Source: Syncephalastrum monosporum B8922 (taxonomy: Eukaryota; Mucoromycota; Mucoromycetes; Mucorales; Syncephalastraceae). From it: a stretch of 64,000 nucleotides of DNA. Location of the stretch: positions 1 through 64,000 of the forward strand of contig JNEN01001280.1 in NCBI GenBank assembly GCA_000697355.1. Reading direction: 5' to 3'. The number at the start of each line of letters is the position of its first letter. Positions within the stretch are counted from its first letter, which is position 1. The notes under the pieces were generated by a model that ran no database searches, was not told the origin of the DNA, and saw only the letters and a program-made list of their open reading frames with translations. Below are positions 7,531-36,331 of this stretch, piece by piece. The position numbers were made by a program, and so were the translations under genes.

Positions 7531-9325
7531 TTAACCCTTTTTCTTGTCATCGGTTGAGTTGGCGCGTTCATCGCGTACGATACGTGCGAGATGATCTCCA
7601 TCGGCGCGGCCAAGGGTCCAGATCTGGGCAAAGCGCTTGAACTTGAGCCGCTTGGGATCCTTGATGATATAGAATTCGCCGTCGCACATGATGCAGATGA
7701 TGTTGCTTCGGTCATAGTGGTTACGCCGGAATAGGTCGAACCAAGACGAACTTCTTTGATTTTCTTCCTTGGGCGCACGAAAGACAATATCAAAGGGAGT
7801 TGCAATCTGGGCAAGACGCGACACGTGGTGACGAAAGTTGGCGAGCTTCTTGAAATAGCTGTACAGATCGTTGATTACCATGATCTCCATCTTGCCGTCG
7901 TTGGCCCGCTGCGGCGTCCATGCCTCTGGATCGGTCGGGCCTTTGCGCCCCTCGACCGACTCCAAACCGGACTTGGCCTCGCCCCACAAATCGACTTCGC
8001 GGCCCCAGATATGCGGGATGTTTTGAATGACAAAGTCAATAGGGTGCTTTGTCATAGTTGGGATGCCCTTGTTGTCGTTTTCGCGTGGCTTTCCTTCGGG
8101 GGATGGGCAGTGGAGGACGGTTTCGCCTTCGTGTTCGATGCTGGAGATGAAGCGCGTGAGAGGAGGAAAGCGACGCCAAAAGACCCACTTGGCGCTCTCA
8201 CGAGTATAGACGAGCATATTGGCTAAACGGTTCCCAGCTCGGTGTTTTTCGAATCCGCTGCCCACGTAGCCCTGCACGCCAATCGACATGTAGTTGCACA
8301 TTTTGCGTTTCAGCGCGGTGGGCTGGCCCACCTCTTTGGAGTTTTTCCGCACCTCCGCCACGTCGTGGCCGTCCTCGCGGTCAGGGCCAGCTATACGGAC
8401 GTAGCCGCTGTCGTAGGCTTCCATCTCAACTTCCCAGATATCGAGGCGCGCGGCGTCACTGCATTCGAGTCGATCAAGGATGAGGGTTTCGAGGTTGGAG
8501 AGGCGCTGGCCGAGCACGTCCTTGTGGGTGATAGTACGACCCCAGCCGAGGACCTGGCTAAAGTCGTTACCGGTGCCGAACGGAATACAGGAGAAAAAGA
8601 CGAGATCAAGATCGATTTCATGCGCGACAAGCATCTCAAAGACGCTCATGACAGTGCCGTCTCCGCCTGCGCTCCAAACGTGCATGTGACGGTGGCGCAC
8701 GCGTTCAGGCATGCGCTTGTTCGCGCCTTCATTGATGTCTGGAAGCTGACCGAGCTTGATCATGCTTTGTATCATCAGGATGCGATCAAAACCGGCTTCG
8801 CGGTCCTCGGGGTCGAGGATGTTATGGATTTCGACTTGGATCTGGGGGAGCTGGCGGAGGCGGAAATGCTGGATGGGCAAGTGGATCAAATCGCTGCCCT
8901 TTTGATCGCCCGAGAGCGGGTTCACAAAGATGAAAAGATACGCACTGGGTCGACCTTCGGCATCGCTGTCGGCTAAGCGAACGGAGGTGTCAATGCGTCC
9001 GAGCGGGTGGGGTCGGGTCTGGGGCTGGCTTTCTTCGACTTCACCTTCGTTTTCGTGAATGCAAGACGTCGTGGTGGTGGTGGCTGCACTGGAGACGGAT
9101 GAGATGCTCGCGAGGCCTGTGGGATTACGTATGAGCAAAAGAATTTCGCTCCGCAGCATCATTGAATGTATATGTGGGTGTACCTGGTGACGACTGTAAG
9201 TCATTATTCTTTGAAGGCAATAATTCGGCAGGCGGTTCGTTTATTTCGATATCAGATGGTTTGTGGGATATTGGATAGACAATATCCTGGTCTTCTGCTT
9301 GGGGGTATACAGTAGGTGATGGCAT
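7531..9325 (-). CDS. Diacylglycerol kinase
   Basis: Phosphorylates diacylglycerol to phosphatidic acid, linking storage-lipid and phospholipid synthesis. Two exons on the minus strand: 9325-9184 and 9116-7531; 575 aa. The DAGK catalytic domain begins with YLFIFVNPLSGDQKG, carries the nucleotide loop SAGGDGTV and the signature IPFGTGNDFSQVLGWGR. The accessory domain follows (MCNYMSIGVQGYVGSGFE, then NFRHHVSRLAQIATPFDI). No C1 or EF-hand domain precedes the catalytic core, as in compact fungal forms. The intron joins SSPG to LASIS in phase 1. An alternative start at 9204 without splicing would read through the intron, which has consensus ends, so the 9325 start is preferred. The 3' end lies 252 bp from the converging PEP carboxykinase stop. 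Confidence 0.9.
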
Positions 9326-17636: not shown

Positions 17637-19491
17637 CAAGCGTGAAGAATTTTTTAAGTTTTTAAAAATTGAAAGGAACCCGCCAAGCGAGGAAAGTTTT
17701 GGGGAGGTCCTCCCGAGTTGTGGCGCCAACGCTTCCAACGATTGGATACAGACAAGTCAAGGATCGGAGCAGGAATTACACATTCCACACTTCCCGCACA
17801 CCACACCGACATTTGGTTGATTAAATGCATCTTGCCTGTGCTGTCAAAAATAAAAAATAGGCTTTCGGCGCAGATACCTCCTGCGACGGTTGTGTAATTC
17901 GCGTGGAAGCCAGCCACGATTGGAATACGCACCATCGGTCATCGTCTGAGCCAATCACGGCCACACATTTTGTTTTACCATGCCGGGAACAAGAAAAAAA
18001 AAAAGGGCCTGCGCCGTCGATCCTTTTTATTGTCATAATTCAGGCAGATTATGTCAGGATAACAAACATTTTGACTTCTTCGTTGATGTTGACTGATATA
18101 GGCTTTGAAGATGGACGCGTGGTAGCAGCAAATATTGCTGCCACGTACTTGCCAATGGAAACCTCAATGCCTTCCCCTCATGGGCATACTATTACTATAT
18201 TTATGCCGGTAATTCATTCAGATGCGCCCTTGAAAATTGTATGCATAGGTACACTTATGGGCTCACAGGCCTAAACGTCCCAGGCATATTTCCACAACTG
18301 CGCAGTATCATTAGATGCAGTATTCCTCATTCGTAAAAACGGAGCCGATTGACATGCATGATTCTGGTAAATTTCTACGAGTGAGGGAAAGATGGACGCT
18401 TACGTCCATTGTTAATTCTCCTTTTTTTATTTTCTTTCTGACATTCAGAGAATGTGTGTTCACTGTGTGACCAATGGGACCGTGCACGTCAAAGAGCAAG
18501 TTATCACATGTGCAAAAAGACAATTAGTGGGGCACTTCAAAGTTTTATTTCGTCATCTACTGTTAATCACACGACCAATAATTTAAAAAACAAGAGACGG
18601 AGACAAGCCCATCTTATCCATGCTGATGGTGATGGTATGACGGGCTGCACTGCATACTTGCATACTTTTTCCCCATCAAAAGTCTAGACGATGATTAGGG
18701 GGCTTTATTTTTTCTCATTTCTTTACCGGTGGTAAGCCGATCTTTTGAAAAAAAAAAAAAAAAATAAAAGGGGGCAGAGGAAATAAAAGAGAGCCCATCA
18801 CTAGTCTGAAACATTCAACGTGTACATATCACATATGGTCTCGGGATGATATGTGCCTTCTAATCCATACTTTTTTGACTCCCCTCTTCTTTCCTATTTC
18901 TGCTTCCCCACGCCTAAAAGAAGATTGACTTTTGTGGAATATTCCCCCTTTTGTCTGTCGGTATCTCCTCTTTCTCTGTGTTTCTTTTTTCCTCTCTGAA
19001 CTCTGCCAAGAGTGCGCGCGCGCAAAGAGGCAGCCAGTGTGTGTAAGTAAGCATGCACCCGGGATAGAGTCAATAGAAAACATTTTTGCTGAGCCGGAAA
19101 AAAATCACTCCTTTCTAGGCCTTCATATCTACGGCGTATTATATTTTTCATACACTTCCCTTTTGTTTTAAAACGTGTCCCTCTCTCTTTCCTCTTTCTC
19201 TCTGTTTCTTTTTTCCTCTCTGAACTCTGCCAAGAGTGCGCGCGCGCAAAGAGGCAGCCAGTGTGTGTAAGTAAGCATGCACCCGGGATAGAGTCAATAG
19301 AAAACATTTTTGCTGAGCCGGAAAAAAATCACTCCTTTCTAGGCCTTCATATCTACGGCGTATTATATTTTTCATACACTTCCCTTTTGTTTTAAAACGT
19401 GTCCCTCTCTCTTTCTCTCTTTCTCTCTCTTCAGCCTTCTCCCCCAGTTTGCAGAACCCTCCTTTCTTTCACTTCCATTTTACGACTTACG
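17637..19491. other. Intergenic region with tandem duplication, otherwise empty
   Basis: A 1.85-kb divergent spacer between the methyltransferase fusion and the acidic protein. The stretch 17637-18966 holds only short ORFs (up to 123 codons at 17903-18274) with no recognisable family. A poly-A run lies at about 18749-18764. The promoter-proximal part is two copies of a 224-bp unit (separate entry), followed by a CT-rich leader up to the ATG at 19492. Confidence 0.6.
18967..19414. repeat. Two tandem copies of a 224-bp unit
   Basis: Copy 1 is 18967-19190 and copy 2 is 19191-19414. Matching landmarks are offset by exactly 224: CTCTGAACTCTGCC, the GC alternation GCGCGCGC, AAGCATGCACCCGGGATAGA, and the end ACGTGTCCCTCTCTC. 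The copies look almost identical; near the start copy 1 reads TCTCTGTGTTTC where copy 2 reads TCTCTCTGTTTC. The second copy ends 77 bp before the ATG of the acidic protein, so the array doubles its promoter or leader. Near identity implies recent origin. Confidence 0.9.
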
Positions 19492-20364
19492 ATGGCCGAC
19501 GCATCACAAATACCAGCACGACGACAGAGCTTGCAAACCTGTATCAAATACGCGTCTCGATTGATCCGCTTACGGTCACAGCTGGGCTCGCCGCCTTCAT
19601 TCCGCCCCTCAATCGAGATCGCCCATAGGACACGGCGAGGTGATACAAGAATGCCAACCAGCATGTCGGTGGACATGCTAAGCCATAGCAATAACCATCA
19701 CCATTACGATGTGCAACCTGACTGCTATGATCCTATCGTCCCTTCCAGCGACTCTAAGACAGCCCGTAACGACATAACTCGTGTGACGTCCTTACCCAAT
19801 GTATCTCAAATCTCACACTACTACGATGGAGACGAAGAAGACGACGAAGACGAAGACAACGCCAGTCGAGAAGAGGACGACGGGGAAGAAGCAAGGCATA
19901 GAAACCGCAAGAGTCACCTTTCACAGCGACAGTCGGAAACACGCTTCAGCTCTACGCACGACCTCTCCTTACCGTCCCTCGCTTCATCATCGAGCCTCCA
20001 AAGTACACCGCTTTACACTTCATTTACCTCGGCCTCGCATCAACTCCTTACTTCCAGAAGTATGGAAGATATGGATGACCCAGACTTACCCGCAGCCTCT
20101 GCCCTCATGAACAAGCGTAACAATTCCTCCCCCCTGCTGCTCACACCTGCAAGGACGCCCGATTACTCGGATCAGGCCGACACAAGCGATGAAGAAGAAG
20201 AAGACGAAGACGACGACGACGATGATACTTCTTTCAGTGTACGTCAGAAAGCAAGGCCGGCCACTGCTTTCCTGGTGTCACTACCCCCCTTTGCCGCTGC
20301 GGCTGCAAGTGTAGCCCGGAAACGTCGCTGGGAAGCTCGGCAGCGCTTGAGCATTGATGAATAA
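19492..20364 (+). CDS. Hypothetical acidic Ser/Asp/Glu-rich protein
   Basis: A single-exon ORF of 290 aa that I do not recognise. The start at 19492 (MADASQIPARRQ) is chosen over the upstream in-frame methionine at 19399, because that extension is a translation of CT-rich leader. The protein has a basic N-terminal third, a His cluster (SNNHHHYD), two long Asp/Glu tracts around residues 117-145 and 229-243, Ser/Leu-rich segments, and a C-terminus with FLVSLPPFAAAAASVA followed by RKRRWEARQR. It is probably largely disordered. It converges on the caleosin-repeat gene with 123 bp between stops. No homologue or function can be suggested. Continuous length and an ATG at the end of a CT-rich leader support a real gene. 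Confidence 0.6.
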   Translation: MADASQIPARRQSLQTCIKYASRLIRLRSQLGSPPSFRPSIEIAHRTRRGDTRMPTSMSVDMLSHSNNHHHYDVQPDCYDPIVPSSDSKTARNDITRVTSLPNVSQISHYYDGDEEDDEDEDNASREEDDGEEARHRNRKSHLSQRQSETRFSSTHDLSLPSLASSSSLQSTPLYTSFTSASHQLLTSRSMEDMDDPDLPAASALMNKRNNSSPLLLTPARTPDYSDQADTSDEEEEDEDDDDDDTSFSVRQKARPATAFLVSLPPFAAAAASVARKRRWEARQRLSIDE

Positions 20365-20487
20365 ATGTCTAGAAAAAAAATACGACAACGGAGTGGGTTA
20401 TGGTTCATACTTGATACGATGATCATTTATTTCTTTGTAATGTTCACACATGGTGCTGGATGCATCTTGATTTGTATACAAACTTTG

Positions 20488-23400
20488 CTACTCTTCTTTT
20501 TGTCCTACGTCAGCAAAGATGGGCCATGCTTCATCGATGCCTCGGGCCTTGGAGAACATGGCATCTTTGTTGACTATGGTATGGTCCTTGGGTGATATCG
20601 GGGAGTCGCTGTTGCTGCTTCCACTGTCCGCTACTGATGTCTCTTGGTCCTCGTCGTCGTTATGTACGCCCGTCAGGGCCAGGTCAAAGTCAAATGCAAA
20701 AGGCTCCTTCTTGACCTGTTGGGTCGGAGTCTTGACGCCCGTGGGCAAGTCCTGCACGTCACCTTTCTGGACGCCCGCCAGGTCTTTGCGCGCGCTGAAG
20801 TCATAGTCGATAGGTTCAGTGGGCTCGGTAAGCATATCCGGTGTTTTGACGCCAGATGGGAATACTGTATCCTCGTCGGATGGGAGCACGCCGGCCATGT
20901 CAGGGTATCCATCAAAGTAATGCACGTCGAGCGGAATATTTTGCTTCTCGCCAGTTGGAGTCTTGACGCCGAACGGTGTCTCACCGTCATCCTCGCTGGC
21001 AAGACCGGACAAGGCGAGCACAAGGCTGTCAAAACTTACAGGCTTGCTCCGACGTGCATTGGCTGGAGTCTTTACACCGGAGGGCATCTCTGTGTGATCA
21101 TCCAGGGGTACAGTGCCAGGCAGGGGTCCAAGCTCCTCAAACTTGTACGGTTTTTTCTTCTTCTTGAATGCATTCTTTGGCGTTTTGACACCTGATGGCA
21201 TGTCATCCAGATCCAGCGGCTGCAAACAACTAAGCGACAGGTCCGTCTCAAGGACGTACTGTTTGGGGCCGTCAGGTACAAGGGGGGTCTTGACACCGGC
21301 AGGTTCATCCGCATCTTCGGACAAGGGTAAAAGACCAGTAAGAGGACCGAGCTTCTCAAAGATGTATTTCTTGGGTTCGGCTTGCTCAGCAGGAGTCTTG
21401 ACGCCCGAAGGTATCTCTTCGCTCAGGCTACCGGCACGCAAGCCAGTCAAGTGCAACACGTCCTCATCCATAGTCTGGATGCTCTCATCGTCGCTTTGCA
21501 AGACGCCGGTCAGGGCACCCATTTCTTCAAGAACGAATTTGCGGCGCTCGTGGATCAACTCGGGAGTCTTGACGCCTGCAGGCATCTCGTCGTCATCGCT
21601 CAGCGGCTGCAAGCAGCTCAAAGATAAATGCCGCTCAAAGACGTACTCTTTAGGACCGTCGGGCACAATAGGTGTCTTGACTCCGGATGGCATTTCCTCA
21701 TCATCATGAAGTGGCAAGATACAAGAGAGTTCAGGCGCCTCAAAGATATACTTCTCCTTGGTTTCTGTCTGAGCCGGTGTCTTGACGCCCGAGGGCATAT
21801 CGTCGTCGTCGCTGAAAGGACGCAGACAGCTCAGAGAAAGGTCAGTATCGAAAACATACTCCTTGGGTCCGTCAGGTACAATCGGGGACTTAACACCGGA
21901 CGGCATCTCATCATCATCATGAAGTGGTAGGATTCCGGAAAGAGCGGGTGCTTCGAAGACATATTTCTTTTTAGATTTGGAACGTTTCGGCGCCTTGACA
22001 CCCGAAGGCATGTCCTTTTCGTCCATCGGCAGAATACCAGAGAGAGCCGGGGCTTCATATGTATACTTTTCCTTGGTCTTGGTATGCTTAGGTGTCTTGA
22101 CTCCTGATGGCATATCACCGTCCCCGTGAAGGGGCCGCAGGCCACTTAGAGAAAGGTCTGTTTCAAACACGTATTCGCGCTTGGATGCAGTGGGTGTCTT
22201 GACACCCACAGACAGGGTATAGTCTGGAGCGAGACCAGAGAGAGCAGGTGCTTCAAAGACATATTCCTCCTTGGGTAATACATTGATTGGTGTCAAGACA
22301 CCAGAAGGCACCTCGTCGTCGTCATGCAGCGGTATAATGCCCGAAAGAACAGGTGCTTCATAAATGTATCGTTCCTTTGCTTTGGTGTGCTTGGGTGTCT
22401 TGACTCCCGTTGGTATATCATGTTTATTAAGCGGCAAAATACCGGAGAGTCCAGGAGCCTCGTAGGTGTACTTCTTCTTGACCTTCGTATGTTTGGGCTT
22501 CTTGACGCCAAAGCGCATGTCATTCAAGTCGAGCGGCTTCAGACAGCTCAAGGACAGGTCAGTCTCCCATTCGTACTTCTTGGGTCCGTCAGGCACTGTT
22601 GGCGTCTTGACGCCGCTTGCCATGTCATCTTCGTTGAGAGGGCGCAGACAGCTGAGTGACAGATCTGACTCAAATACATATTCCTTGGGTCCGTTAGGTA
22701 CGACGGGCGTCTTCACGCCTGAAGGCATGTCGTTTTCATTCAGTGGCAGGACAGCAGACAGAGCCAGTGCTTCGTACGTGTACATCTCTTTGGCTTTGGT
22801 GTGTTTGGGTGTCTTCACACCCGAAGGCATGTCGTTCTCGTCAAGGGGTTTGATAGCAGAGAGAGCGGGTGCTTCGTAGATGTATGTGTCTTTGGCCTTG
22901 GTGAGCTTGGGTGTCTTGACACCAGATGGAATGTCATTATCATCAAACGGCACAAGACCAGAAAGAGTAGGAGTTTCAAAGATATACATTTCTTTAGGCT
23001 TGCCTGCGTGAACAGGTGTCTTGACCCCAGAGGGCATGTCATCGTCATCCGTGCGTCGCAGACACGACAGAGCAAAGGGATGTGTCTTGTTCTCCGTCTT
23101 GGCAATCGGCCCTCGTAGACCCACGGCGGGCGAATCCAGTTCGTCGGCGGATCGGCGGAGACCCGTCAGGGTCGTCATGGGTTCCATTGTGTATTGTTTG
23201 CGCTCGGACTTTCGGATGGTAGGCAGCTGGACGCCAAAGGCTGTGTCGAGGTCATCAGCGGACCGACGCAAGCCAGTCAAAGCCATCATCGGTTCCAGTT
23301 TGTACTCTTTACGCTCAGATCTGACCGTAGGCGATCTGACGCCAAAAGCAAAAGCGTGTTCAGAATCGTTTCCAGAAGGTTTCAAGCCAGCCAATGCGAT

Positions 23401-25248
23401 GACAGGTTCAAATATGTACTCGGCCTTTCGCTCCGTCACCGGTGGGGTCTTGACACCCGACGGCATGCTGTCGTCATCAGATTTGTGCGCTTGCACGCCA
23501 GTCAAGGCCGCAAGGGGTTCAGACACATAATGCTTCTTGTTCTCCTGTGCAGGTGGGGTCTTGACGCCGGTGGGTATATCTTGATCATATGTGTCATGTC
23601 GTAGTCCAGACAGAGTCACGGGGACACCATCATAAACAGACTCATCCGGCTGAGGCGCTGAAGACACTCCCGTGGGAGGGGACCGAACACCAGCGAAAGA
23701 TGATATACTGGATCCGAACGAAGAACTATCCGGGATGGTACCTGTCAGGCGAATGCCAGAAGAAAATCGTGGGGTATCAGAATGATTTTTGCGCTTGACA
23801 TCACGGGGCGGGGCTTGGACAACAGGCAGAGCGGGTGAGCTCATACGATCACGCATTGTGTGTCCGGTCTTTGCGACTCCGGTCAAGGTTATCATCCCGT
23901 CACCGACGCTGTTGGTTGTGTCATATGTGTCGTCTGGATGGTCAGGCGAAGAAGGTCGATAGCCAGCGACACCTGTGAGGGCATAGCTGGTTTCCTCTTT
24001 GCCTAAGGCGGTCCTGCGAAGACTGCGCAAGCCTGTGCTCCATAAAGACGTGTCGTTCTCATGCAAAAGCGCCCGTCGTCCGCCGATATTGGTGGAGCGC
24101 GCGACTTGGGGCGTCGCTACGCGGTTGAACTTCAACTGCCGGCTCGCCGGTTCAGGGGCGTCAGGGAGGAGTGCGGACACACGCCGAGTGATGGGAGCGG
24201 GAATAAACGGGAGGATGATGGTTTCGGCGGCAGATACGACAAATTTCGACACGTAGGATGAGCTTGGCAGGGGCTTGACACCCGCCAAATGAAGAGGCTT
24301 CTTGCTGTCGGAGAAGGCTGTAATACGCTTGTTGCGATCTCGCATTTCATGGAATAAGGTCCCCTTCCAACATATAAACCTGTTTGAGAAAAACACTGCC
24401 AAGATAATATACTAGGTGTGCCACTTACATCATAGGCAGCCCGGACATTATCGCGGTCCAACACGCCCCGGTGGCCCACCATGAGATAGATCGTGCCCCA
24501 TACCAGCAAAGCATTCAAAACCCTATGTTATAGGTCAATACCTCTGCTTTGATACACTAATTTTGCTTACGAGAAAGTGAACAGTTGTCCGTTGGCGTTG
24601 TTCATGCGAAACAGTTCATCCACCGTAATGGTATTGCGACTCAGATCACGCGTGGCGTATTTTTCAAAAGCTTGATTAAAGCGATCATCGTCCAAGTTCC
24701 CATCCCCATCATGCAGAGAAGTGTTTATCTGTGAGATAGTACGTGTATGTATGTTAATGCCGAGTTGGGCGCCCAAATGGAGAATAAAGGGAAAGTGCAA
24801 GTTTTACCTTGAGGCGACCCAAGTTGCGTACTTGAACACGACCGTGTAGATCAGGAAACCAAGAGTCATTCGTTGCGTAAGAGAACAGCACGGTTAGGAA
24901 TGTACCCACAGCAAAACTGAAGGCGACACCATGACCGAGATTCATGAAACCTGATTCGTATGTCGTCAGTAGAATAAGTCTCTTCCAAGCTCATGTTGTA
25001 CCTATTGCTGCATCGTACGGTGTGATGTATCCCTTGTTCTCTCTGTCCCAAAACTTCGCGTGCTTGCGTGCCGTCTTCAGTTTTTTTTTTTTTTTTTTTC
25101 ATAAAAAAAAGGACGGTATCAGCTATTTGCCAGAAATCCAACGTATTCAAAATTCCAAGGGATGAGAGATATTTACAAAACCAGCATCTTGCGATACAAT
25201 GGCGCTCTGCGGTATGGCCGAGCGCGATAATGCGCCGTTTGATAGCAT
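20488..25248 (-). CDS. Caleosin domain fused to a long SGVKTP-repeat region
   Basis: Caleosins are Ca2+-binding haem peroxygenases of lipid droplets. Six exons on the minus strand: 25248-25177, 25074-25002, 24950-24808, 24728-24571, 24522-24429, 24363-20488; 1471 aa, against roughly 200-300 aa for ordinary caleosins. Residues 25-195 are caleosin: KHAKFWDRENKGYITPYDA is the EF-hand region, and GFMNLGHGVAFSFAVGTF is the hydrophobic segment with candidate haem His55. Next come LHDGDGNLDDDRFNQAFEKY, LNALLVWGTIYLMVGHRG and LDRDNVRAAYD. No plant-type proline knot is obvious. Exon 6 starts with the caleosin end (GTLFHEMRDRNKR) and runs uninterrupted into about 27 repeats (residues about 430-1410). 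Two repeat flavours occur, one with YEAPALSGILPL and one with KEYVFETDLSLSCLRPL. The N-terminus (MLSNGALSRSAIPQ) is supported by consensus splice sites. The last 60 residues are acidic and repeat-free. Confidence 0.85.
20700..23595 (-). repeat. Coding tandem repeats, about 27 units of 33-36 codons
   Basis: Minus-strand repeat array inside the caleosin fusion gene. Each unit carries a core (M/I)PSGVKTP, then a 10-12 residue variable linker rich in Lys and Pro (for example KHTKAKEKY or IVPDGPKEY). A hydrophobic box of the LSGxLPL or LSCLRPL type follows, and then an acidic DDDD-like turn leading into the next core. Outer units are more diverged (FGVRSP, FGVQLP, VGLRGP), while central units are close to consensus, which suggests ongoing unequal exchange or conversion. 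Long opposite-strand ORFs here mirror the repeat and are not genes. Confidence 0.9.
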
Positions 25249-34093: not shown

Positions 34094-36331
34094 ATGTTTT
34101 TCGAGACAACGTGCCTCCAACCACCCGCGTTTTTGCCACAAGAGGATGCAACCAAGCAAGAGCAGGGATCAGAGATGGAGAACGCAAAGTACGAGCGGCT
34201 CATGGCGCCTCGCCCATATCGCCCGGCGAGCCATGTTGTGTTTGTGATCCATGTAAGCTTTTTAATTTTCGTCACAGTTCATGTTTGTCTGACAGCTTTT
34301 TTGTAGGGCATAGGGCAGGTAATTTGATAACAAATAGTGAATAGAGCTGCAGCAGAAAGCTAAACAATGCACGCGTACATAAACGAGTAGCAAACTGAGC
34401 GGTATGGCATGTTCGACAAGCACAGTAAGTTTAATTCGCACAGACCTGTTTGATGCATTGCAAGTCCAGTAATCCAGACGAATTAATTCAAACGATTCAT
34501 AGTGGATCAGCTTCGCCTGACCATGGAGCAGGTTTTGCAGGCACGTATGCCGCATCAAGATGATATCCATGTCGAGCTGATACCGATCGAATGGCACCGT
34601 CATATCCACGCCGAGGCCGACACGGTGGTACAAAGCCTCTTGCCCAAATCGATCCCGACCTTACGCTTCATCGAGTCCGATTACTTGTCGGACGTCCTCT
34701 TTTATTTTTCCAAAGATCGCGGCCAGAGCATCATTAACCACTGCACTCGCATGTTCAATTCGTCCTATCACGACTTTATGGCTACTCACCCTGAATTTGG
34801 TGGCAAAGTGGCTATTGTCGGATACTCGTACGTAAGGAGAAGAGAAGTGGTGTGTGTGTGTGTGTTAGCGTACATGGATGGCCAAGATCAAGGAGGTAGA
34901 AAAAAGAAGGTGCGGGTGAAGAGGGGCTATGAGGGCGGTGGCAAAGAGGAAGCAAGCGACCTGTTGCGGAGACAGAAAGGAGAAATAATGAGGGCGAAGG
35001 GCGGGGGGGGGAGAAGGAGTATTGCGGGTGAGTAATGAGGAGCGAGACGAGGAGAAGTGAGGGGGGAGGGTTATCGCCTTTAGTATCTTGCTCATACTGA
35101 TCCTATCCATCTCTAGATTGGGTGGTCTTATCTCATGGGATATTCTCTGCCGCCAACGTCAACATTTATCACGACGAGAAATGGAGGAATATAGCAAGTT
35201 TGATGTCGAGGTGCCCAAACTCGATTTCCGCCCGGATTATCTATTCGGCATGGGCTGCCCTTTAGGAGGCATGCTTGCAGCTCGTAACCAAGACGCACAT
35301 CTGTACCATCCTGACCCTCGCGTTGTTTTCGAGAATATCTACCATGCCTTTGATCCTCTGGTAAAGCAATTTTACGCTTCACTGAACACTCGCTGACATG
35401 CATGTTTTTCATTGTTTGTTTAAAGGCTTTTCGTTTTGAGCCTCTTTTGGACCAAGAGTACGCAGAAAAACCCCCAGTGGCGGTCGACCGAGTCACTCCC
35501 ACCACCTCCTTTTTGTCCTCTCTACCTCTTGTGTCATATTTCACGCGGCGATCATCAGAAGAGGAGGTCGAAATTGTTGAAGACAAACCACCCTCTCTGT
35601 TCTCGACATCTGTCAATGCCGTGCTCCAGTTTTTCTCACTGAAGAGCGAGGACGAAGACGAAGATGAAGACGATCTACTTCTCGAGTACCAGCAAAGGCG
35701 CAAGAGCGAGGGTGACATACTCCAGATAAAAAAGGAGGAGCAGCAACAGAAGGAGGAGCAAGAGCAGGCCTCAATGCCACGGACAAAACGTCCCCGTGCT
35801 CACAGCATGCCATCCCTTCTCCGTCACGGCCGAGCCAGACACCAACAATTGCAAAAGCAGCAGCAGGGGTTACAAGAAGTAGCAGCAATAGCGGCGACGG
35901 AGGCAGAGCGGGAAGTTCAAGAAGATAATATGTACGACGACGACGACATGCCACGTCTCTCGTCGGATAGCACGGAGTCATCCTTGTTTTCAACCGAGCC
36001 GCAAACACCGACGTTCACCGCAGACGCGGATCCGATGTGGGGAAAGTCGAATTACCAGCTTTTGGAAATTCTTGGCCTGGACACCCCCATTCAAAACCAG
36101 GCGCCAGCCCTCAAATCGGCCACCGCTGCATGGACTCCGCCTCCCCCGCACGCTAGCACAAAGAGCGCTTCTTTGCCAGGCGGCCGCCGCATTGACTATG
36201 AGCTGACCCCCGCCAGTTGGATGGGTATGATTACGAACGAGTACATCCTCGGGCTGCGTGCGCACTTCTCTTACTGGGACAATAAGGACATGGTTTGGCA
36301 TATCCTGACCCGCCTTGAAAACATTTGTTAA
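34094..36331 (+). CDS. DDHD-domain phospholipase (PA-preferring phospholipase A1-like)
   Basis: Predicted intracellular phospholipase A1 of the DDHD family, acting on phosphatidic acid and related lipids at secretory-pathway membranes. Exons: 34094-34252, 34307-34318, 34511-34827, 35117-35360, 35426-36331; 545 aa. Motifs are VVFVIHGIGQ across introns 1-2, HVELIPIEWH, and the nucleophile elbow GYSLGG, whose Ser codon is split by intron 3. These are followed by FRPDYLFGMGCPLGGM and the DDHD region (VFENIYHAFDPL, RIDYELTPASW, HFSYWDNKDMVWHIL). A long acidic and Gln/Glu-rich insert interrupts the DDHD domain. Exon 2 is a 12-nt microexon encoding GIGQ. Intron 3 (289 nt) is unusually long for this window. 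An in-frame ATG at 34037 would add 19 mostly hydrophobic residues, but they look like translated leader. Confidence 0.85.

Follow-up and report, generated by a model that had tools for sequence, protein, structure and literature searches.

In this study, we found that a gene of Syncephalastrum monosporum B8922 encodes a caleosin domain followed, in the same reading frame, by an array of 27 repeat units. The gene lies on the minus strand of contig JNEN01001280.1, from 25248 down to 20488 of the 64,000-nucleotide stretch that was analysed (hereafter the window), and its six predicted exons give a protein of 1471 residues, about 161 kDa. The architecture is real, under selection and unusual. We propose that the product is a membrane- or lipid-droplet-anchored, mostly disordered, multivalent scaffold, a reading which we hold tentatively and whose chance we put a little short of even.

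One gene for the caleosin domain and the array

The Pfam family Caleosin (PF05042) matched residues 27-187 of the spliced product with an E value of 1.4e-36 (126.5 bits, the cut-off being 27; profile positions 7-169 of 170). An earlier note on this DNA had claimed that the gene carries a full caleosin domain, and this match over 161 residues agrees with it. The five introns of the model are all of the GT-AG type and measure 102, 51, 79, 48 and 65 nt; their splice sites were picked by eye from the GT and AG dinucleotides, the frame and the caleosin sequence. The features of the gene, all on the minus strand, are as follows.

25177..25248, minus: exon 1, start codon at 25248 and N-terminus (spliced model)
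25002..25074, minus: exon 2, EF-hand-like loop of the caleosin and histidine 29 (model, Pfam and alignment)
24808..24950, minus: exon 3, hydrophobic segment one (residues 53-71), with a lone proline near the expected proline knot
24571..24728, minus: exon 4, middle of the caleosin domain (model and Pfam)
24429..24522, minus: exon 5, the bulk of hydrophobic segment two (residues 146-164; model and hydropathy)
20488..24363, minus: exon 6, C-terminus of the caleosin, linker, array and stop codon (model and open frame)
23692..24303, minus: linker, residues 201-404, which includes a third stretch of hydrophobic residues at 221-239 as well as four boxes of the form L[TA]G[VT] (coordinates from the model)
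20644..23691, minus: 27-unit array, residues 405-1420 (coordinates from the model)
20426..20431, minus: AATAAA, candidate polyadenylation signal 57 nt beyond the stop codon (read from the sequence)

A Caleosin match at 24802-24960 covered exon 3. A TATAAG was read upstream of the start codon.

Exon 6 begins within the caleosin domain, at the motif (D)GTLFHEM, and stays open to 20488, so that the C-terminus of the caleosin and the whole array share the last exon in one frame with no stop before its end, as had been noted earlier. The frame of this last exon matched no Pfam family at E values up to 1. The gene model is a sequence-based prediction in which a large last exon stands beside five small ones, and this would fit an artefact in which the prediction fused the gene of a caleosin with an independent gene for the repeats. 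We consider this very improbable, since the caleosin domain itself runs on into the last exon, which remains free of stop codons, and the linker scores as protein-coding in that frame. In terms of codon usage, frame 0 ranked first among the six in every one of the six segments, both linker segments among them; the measure had ten open frames from the window as its training set, and its penalty on stop codons favours an open frame. Moreover, the box motif of the array is present in the linker at residues 206, 309, 340 and 386, a number that was reached in none of 2000 linker shuffles (mean 0.19). The first of these boxes lies only 19 residues past the end of the Caleosin match; the idiom of the array thus appears in the linker already, an argument against a fusion of two genes by the prediction. 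Because the last exon is open from the caleosin domain through the array and the linker holds these boxes, a two-gene artefact seems unlikely from the sequence, and the earlier statement that the link is no artefact of the model is upheld.

The repeat array

There were 27 anchors of the form GV[KLQR][TSKALP]P, reading exactly GVKTP in 20 and PSGVKTP in 12, and the previous estimate of about 27 SGVKTP-type repeats was therefore correct. The repeat length had been given as 33-36 residues. This held for the bulk of the array, where 17 of the 26 intervals measured 34-36 residues (median 35.5), and not for all of it, as the range extended to 32-69 with two long intervals of 57 and 69. The consensus unit runs from GVKTP through a basic or VPDGP stretch, [KR]xYx[FY]E, L[ST][GC][LIV]xPL and an acidic run to MPS, so that basic, hydrophobic and acidic blocks alternate along the array as described before. 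The first five and the last five units stray further from this consensus. By a simple text rule, which left 12 of the 27 units unclassed, units 6-19 were sorted into classes A and B, reading AAABBAAABAABAB, and unit 22 was of class B; members of the two classes are thus interspersed in the central part of the array.

A genome search with a hand-composed unit query of 96 residues gave at least 14 matches, all in this gene, and no second copy of the array was seen in the 27.5 Mb of the genome, match counts being lower bounds. A kelch-like fold was considered and rejected: three solved structures matched at E values up to 1, the best at 0.024, and the independent E value was about 900 or more for each stretch. 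The matching chains are named SAKe6, which we take to be designed propellers.

Selection and age of the units

The units are restrained at the protein level. Over all unit pairs and 36 columns, the proportion of synonymous differences (pS) was 0.747 and that of nonsynonymous differences (pN) was 0.413, a ratio of 0.55. The ratio was 0.13 in the GVKTP columns (bootstrap 0.05-0.22) and 0.26 (0.21-0.31) over 13 conserved columns, both values being biased low because the anchoring of the units itself fixes G, V and P, and the motif columns were chosen for conservation. Over the other 23, least conserved, columns it was 0.71 (0.64-0.77), a value biased high by the choice of poorly conserved columns; saturation of synonymous sites raises all of these ratios. 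Since synonymous sites are near saturation and amino-acid change is restrained, the array appears to be old and kept at the protein level, with most units long maintained as protein.

It is known that slippage readily makes tandem repeats, and a few neighbours in the array are mutual best matches in DNA (units 4/5 at 0.69 and units 7/8 at 0.78), as would be expected of a neutral repeat expansion without function. We find this explanation hardly credible in view of the restraint at near-saturated synonymous sites, and even the least conserved columns gave a ratio below 1. Neighbours in units 6-22 were also no more alike than distant units: mean DNA identity was flat with distance, at 0.572 for lag 1 and 0.522-0.592 for lags 2-11. 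Recent tandem duplication was rejected as the rule on the same flat identity, the two closer neighbour pairs notwithstanding.

The caleosin domain and its hydrophobic segments

The EF-hand-like loop DRENKGYITPYD has a lysine at position 5 and an aspartate at position 12, and presumably deviates from the usual pattern of EF-hand ligands. The EF-hand_6 family gave a weak match (E 0.0079; 16.3 bits, under its cut-off of 25). The domain was also aligned with a sequence that we take to be that of Arabidopsis caleosin 1. In this alignment, His 29 falls on the presumed first heme histidine, the presumed second one has no counterpart in the protein, and the proline knot is, on the same assumption, reduced to a single proline. 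The C-terminal DG[TS]LF motif is presumably shared with the plant caleosin. A loss of peroxygenase activity is plausible for this caleosin, as judged against this assumed reference. In the AfPXG of Aspergillus flavus, activity depends on His85, and residues 126-140 are required for binding to membranes and droplets, as reported in PMC5808235.

The only other Caleosin match in the genome at an E value of 0.001 was at L004:3463-4599 (37.8 bits, profile positions 10-62 only). It is a divergent caleosin domain behind a long charged N-terminal part, close to a contig end, and by eye it has an arginine at the expected place of the first heme histidine.

Three hydrophobic segments, at residues 53-71, 146-164 and 221-239, had Kyte-Doolittle means of 1.69, 1.75 and 1.62. 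The first adjoins the EF-hand-like loop, as is asked of the caleosin family, and the third follows the caleosin domain and contains proline. Perilipins stabilise the droplet surface by repeated amphipathic segments, and in a similar way the LSGxLPL boxes of the array could dip into the droplet monolayer, with the chain lying flat on the surface and stabilising the droplet as a direct lipid coat. All 27 units have a short box matching [LM][STAP][GCA][LIVT] next to charged blocks, and the third hydrophobic stretch behind the domain would also suit such a coat. However, the boxes are short and lie about 35 residues apart, the structure model of two units is without helix, and the hydropathy peaks of the array within the top eight reached only 0.54-0.71, far below the three segments. 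The net charge of the array, -45, argues against it as well, and we regard this coat as unlikely.

Phosphorylation motifs

The Thr-Pro core of the units had been read as a proline-directed multisite phosphorylation platform. The minimal site is indeed well conserved: the slot after GVx was TP in 21 of the 27 units and SP in three, with another residue before P in the remaining three, so that [ST]P was kept in 24. The array contained 23 TP (8.1 expected from 500 residue shuffles). Cks1 has a preference at position -2 of TP, and [FILPVWYM]xTP occurred 22 times against a mean of 3.1 and a maximum of 10 in the shuffles, which places the array well beyond chance. On the other hand, the claim as a whole was only partly supported, as full sites of the Cdk or MAPK type were absent from the array, with no [ST]Px[KR] (2.0 expected by shuffling) and no Px[ST]P (1.6 expected). 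Steps between the S/T slots were 34-39 residues in 17 of 23 cases, the other six being 32, 41, 57, 69, 69 and 105, and none fell within 10-22. The distance of Cks1 priming is 10-22 residues and Cks1 recognises phosphorylated TP motifs, according to the review PMC12982290. An additional TP at residue 644 is 15 residues past one slot and 20 ahead of the next.

A protein switched at a cell-cycle or growth transition by Cdk through Cks1, or by another proline-directed kinase, would agree with the TP or SP in 24 slots, with the allowed -2 residue at 22 of the 23 TP of the array and with the two steps around TP 644, which are in the Cks1 range. It agrees less with the regular steps beyond the priming distance, with the lack of full sites and with [KR]xL motifs below chance, and GVKTP may be a mere structural turn. 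We think such a platform quite unlikely. From the motifs, a minimal TP site is well conserved and a tuned Cdk or MAPK relay was not seen.

Several specific candidates were rejected. For a Cdk/Cks1 multisite substrate, no [ST]Px[KR] was present and the in-range steps arose only through TP 644. A strict LxxIxE-like pattern for PP2A-B56 docking in the box occurred twice (2.2 by chance), and a loose one occurred 14 times (1.6 by chance) but was derived from the box and merely restates the repeat. Cyclin docking by [KR]xL was under chance (6 against 11.5 expected), as were CK2 sites (16 against 23.9).

A proposed multivalent scaffold and the points for and against it

Taking the anchored scaffold as the best explanation, the caleosin domain and its two hydrophobic segments would hold the protein on the surface of the endoplasmic reticulum (ER) or of a droplet. 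The C-terminal residues, about 1000 in number, would form a long, mostly disordered chain with 27 similar binding units. In each consensus unit the GVKTP turn, possibly phosphorylated, would be followed by a basic stretch, an aromatic Yx[FY]E step, the hydrophobic L[ST][GC][LI]xPL box and, last, an acidic tail. The units may repeatedly bind a partner, or one another by means of opposite charges and their hydrophobic boxes. As the outcome, we infer that droplets could be clustered or tethered, or a partner recruited in high copy. In favour of this reading are the Caleosin match, the single open frame, the near-constant spacing and protein-level restraint of the units, their two interspersed classes, the hydrophobic segments and the two-unit structure model. 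Of these elements the layout, the one frame and the restraint on the units are shown by the data, and the location, the disorder, the binding of partners and the clustering are inferred. A more specific form of this proposal would be a new class of lipid-droplet scaffold, in which a non-peroxygenase caleosin is a pure anchor and droplets are clustered by the 27 units, two kinds of which interleave centrally; together the units would make up a condensate or velcro layer with patterned charge and tuning by phosphorylation. This form seems rather unlikely to us.

The following points weigh against the scaffold. First, its disorder is weakly supported by prediction. A structure model of two units, with a mean predicted local distance difference test score (pLDDT) of 60.1 and a predicted template modelling score (pTM) of 0.12, had no helix of four or strand of three residues, which is weakly consistent with a disordered array; its alignment had 14 rows, and because all of them came from the same array, the low confidence is weak evidence of disorder.

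Second, the topology may be unfavourable. In PMC6309107, a second membrane segment was reported in 19 of 40 fungal caleosins surveyed, with ends predicted to face the lumen or the outside for those. The same source predicts that N-termini of fungal caleosins face the lumen or the outside, and that the C-terminal part does so too when there are two membrane segments. A lumen-facing C-terminal part would put the array beyond the reach of cytosolic partners and kinases. The gene product could then be a repeat protein of the lumen or cell surface that crosses the membrane twice and has its N-terminus in the lumen, and whose array has a structural or adhesive role in the ER lumen, the wall or outside. 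PMC6309107 predicts this topology for nearly every fungal caleosin, and there are two hydrophobic segments in the caleosin domain here. Sequons in the 1016-residue array were at the level of chance (2 against 2.1), which favours neither membrane side, and insertion into a droplet as a hairpin would put both ends in the cytosol. We consider a luminal protein distinctly improbable.

Third, no relative was found, and the layout can hence not be called conserved among species. At E values up to 0.001, a protein database gave no match to the whole protein among the 7990 best-scoring candidates by shared words, none to the caleosin part among 659 candidates and none to 342 array residues among 7997 candidates scored; the first and the third of these searches scored a capped set of candidates, and relatives may have escaped them. 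Because the caleosin part alone also matched nothing, this absence says little about rarity, and the database seems to be poor in fungi. The caleosin part matched no solved structure at E values up to 1. The array had 11 pattern matches in GTDB genome contigs and four in viral contigs, and the caleosin had one in viral contigs, none of them a relative. In a limited open-access full-text search, no published description of a caleosin with a repeat array was seen, and no open-access paper contained the string SGVKTP.

As a separate observation on the genome, the CotH family gave 26 matches counted exon by exon, as expected of Mucorales, and was also matched in three of 14 prokaryote control genomes. 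CotH is a family known from Mucorales but not specific to them. Lipase and actin frames of the genome gave no hint of its lineage.

The surrounding locus

An open frame at 19396-20364, convergent with the caleosin gene (stop codons 123 bases apart), would encode 322 residues with acidic and serine runs and had no Pfam match at an E value of 0.001. It is preceded and entered by a tandem duplication at 18966-19428 with a 224-base period, 2.1 copies and 99% matches. On the plus strand, long open frames at 21098-21709 lie opposite the array and mirror its repeats; they may be a by-product of the constraint on the opposite strand, with no gene needed. The window also holds a Diacylglycerol kinase frame (7534-9240) and a DDHD-domain frame (35354-36328), which is probably a coincidence. 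An Rfam search of the 64-kb window gave no match.

Significance and comparison with known systems

Caleosins have been known as peroxygenases and as small proteins of lipid droplets. One that carries a thousand selected residues would show that the domain can anchor a large multivalent protein, and would offer a tractable sticker-and-spacer chain fixed to a lipid surface, although the case is confined to a single species.

This protein resembles the known caleosins, AfPXG included, in the domain match of 161 residues, the position of the EF-hand-like loop and the hydrophobic segment beside it. It differs in mass, its 161 kDa comparing with the 25-30 kDa given in PMC6309107, a typical trait of caleosins and no strict criterion, and in the 1284 residues that follow the domain match. 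Like perilipins, as we understand them, it is a proposed droplet-surface protein with repeated segments that may face lipid. Unlike them, it had no Pfam perilipin match in the last-exon frame at E values up to 1, and its boxes are about 35 residues apart and non-helical in the model. The many TP motifs in a presumably disordered chain recall the Ki-67 repeats, again as we understand them. The same likeness exists to the multisite TP arrays of the Sic1 type, as described in PMC7160111. In contrast to both, the array has no Pfam repeat match, its unit of 35 residues has boxes of its own, and it is attached to a membrane domain.

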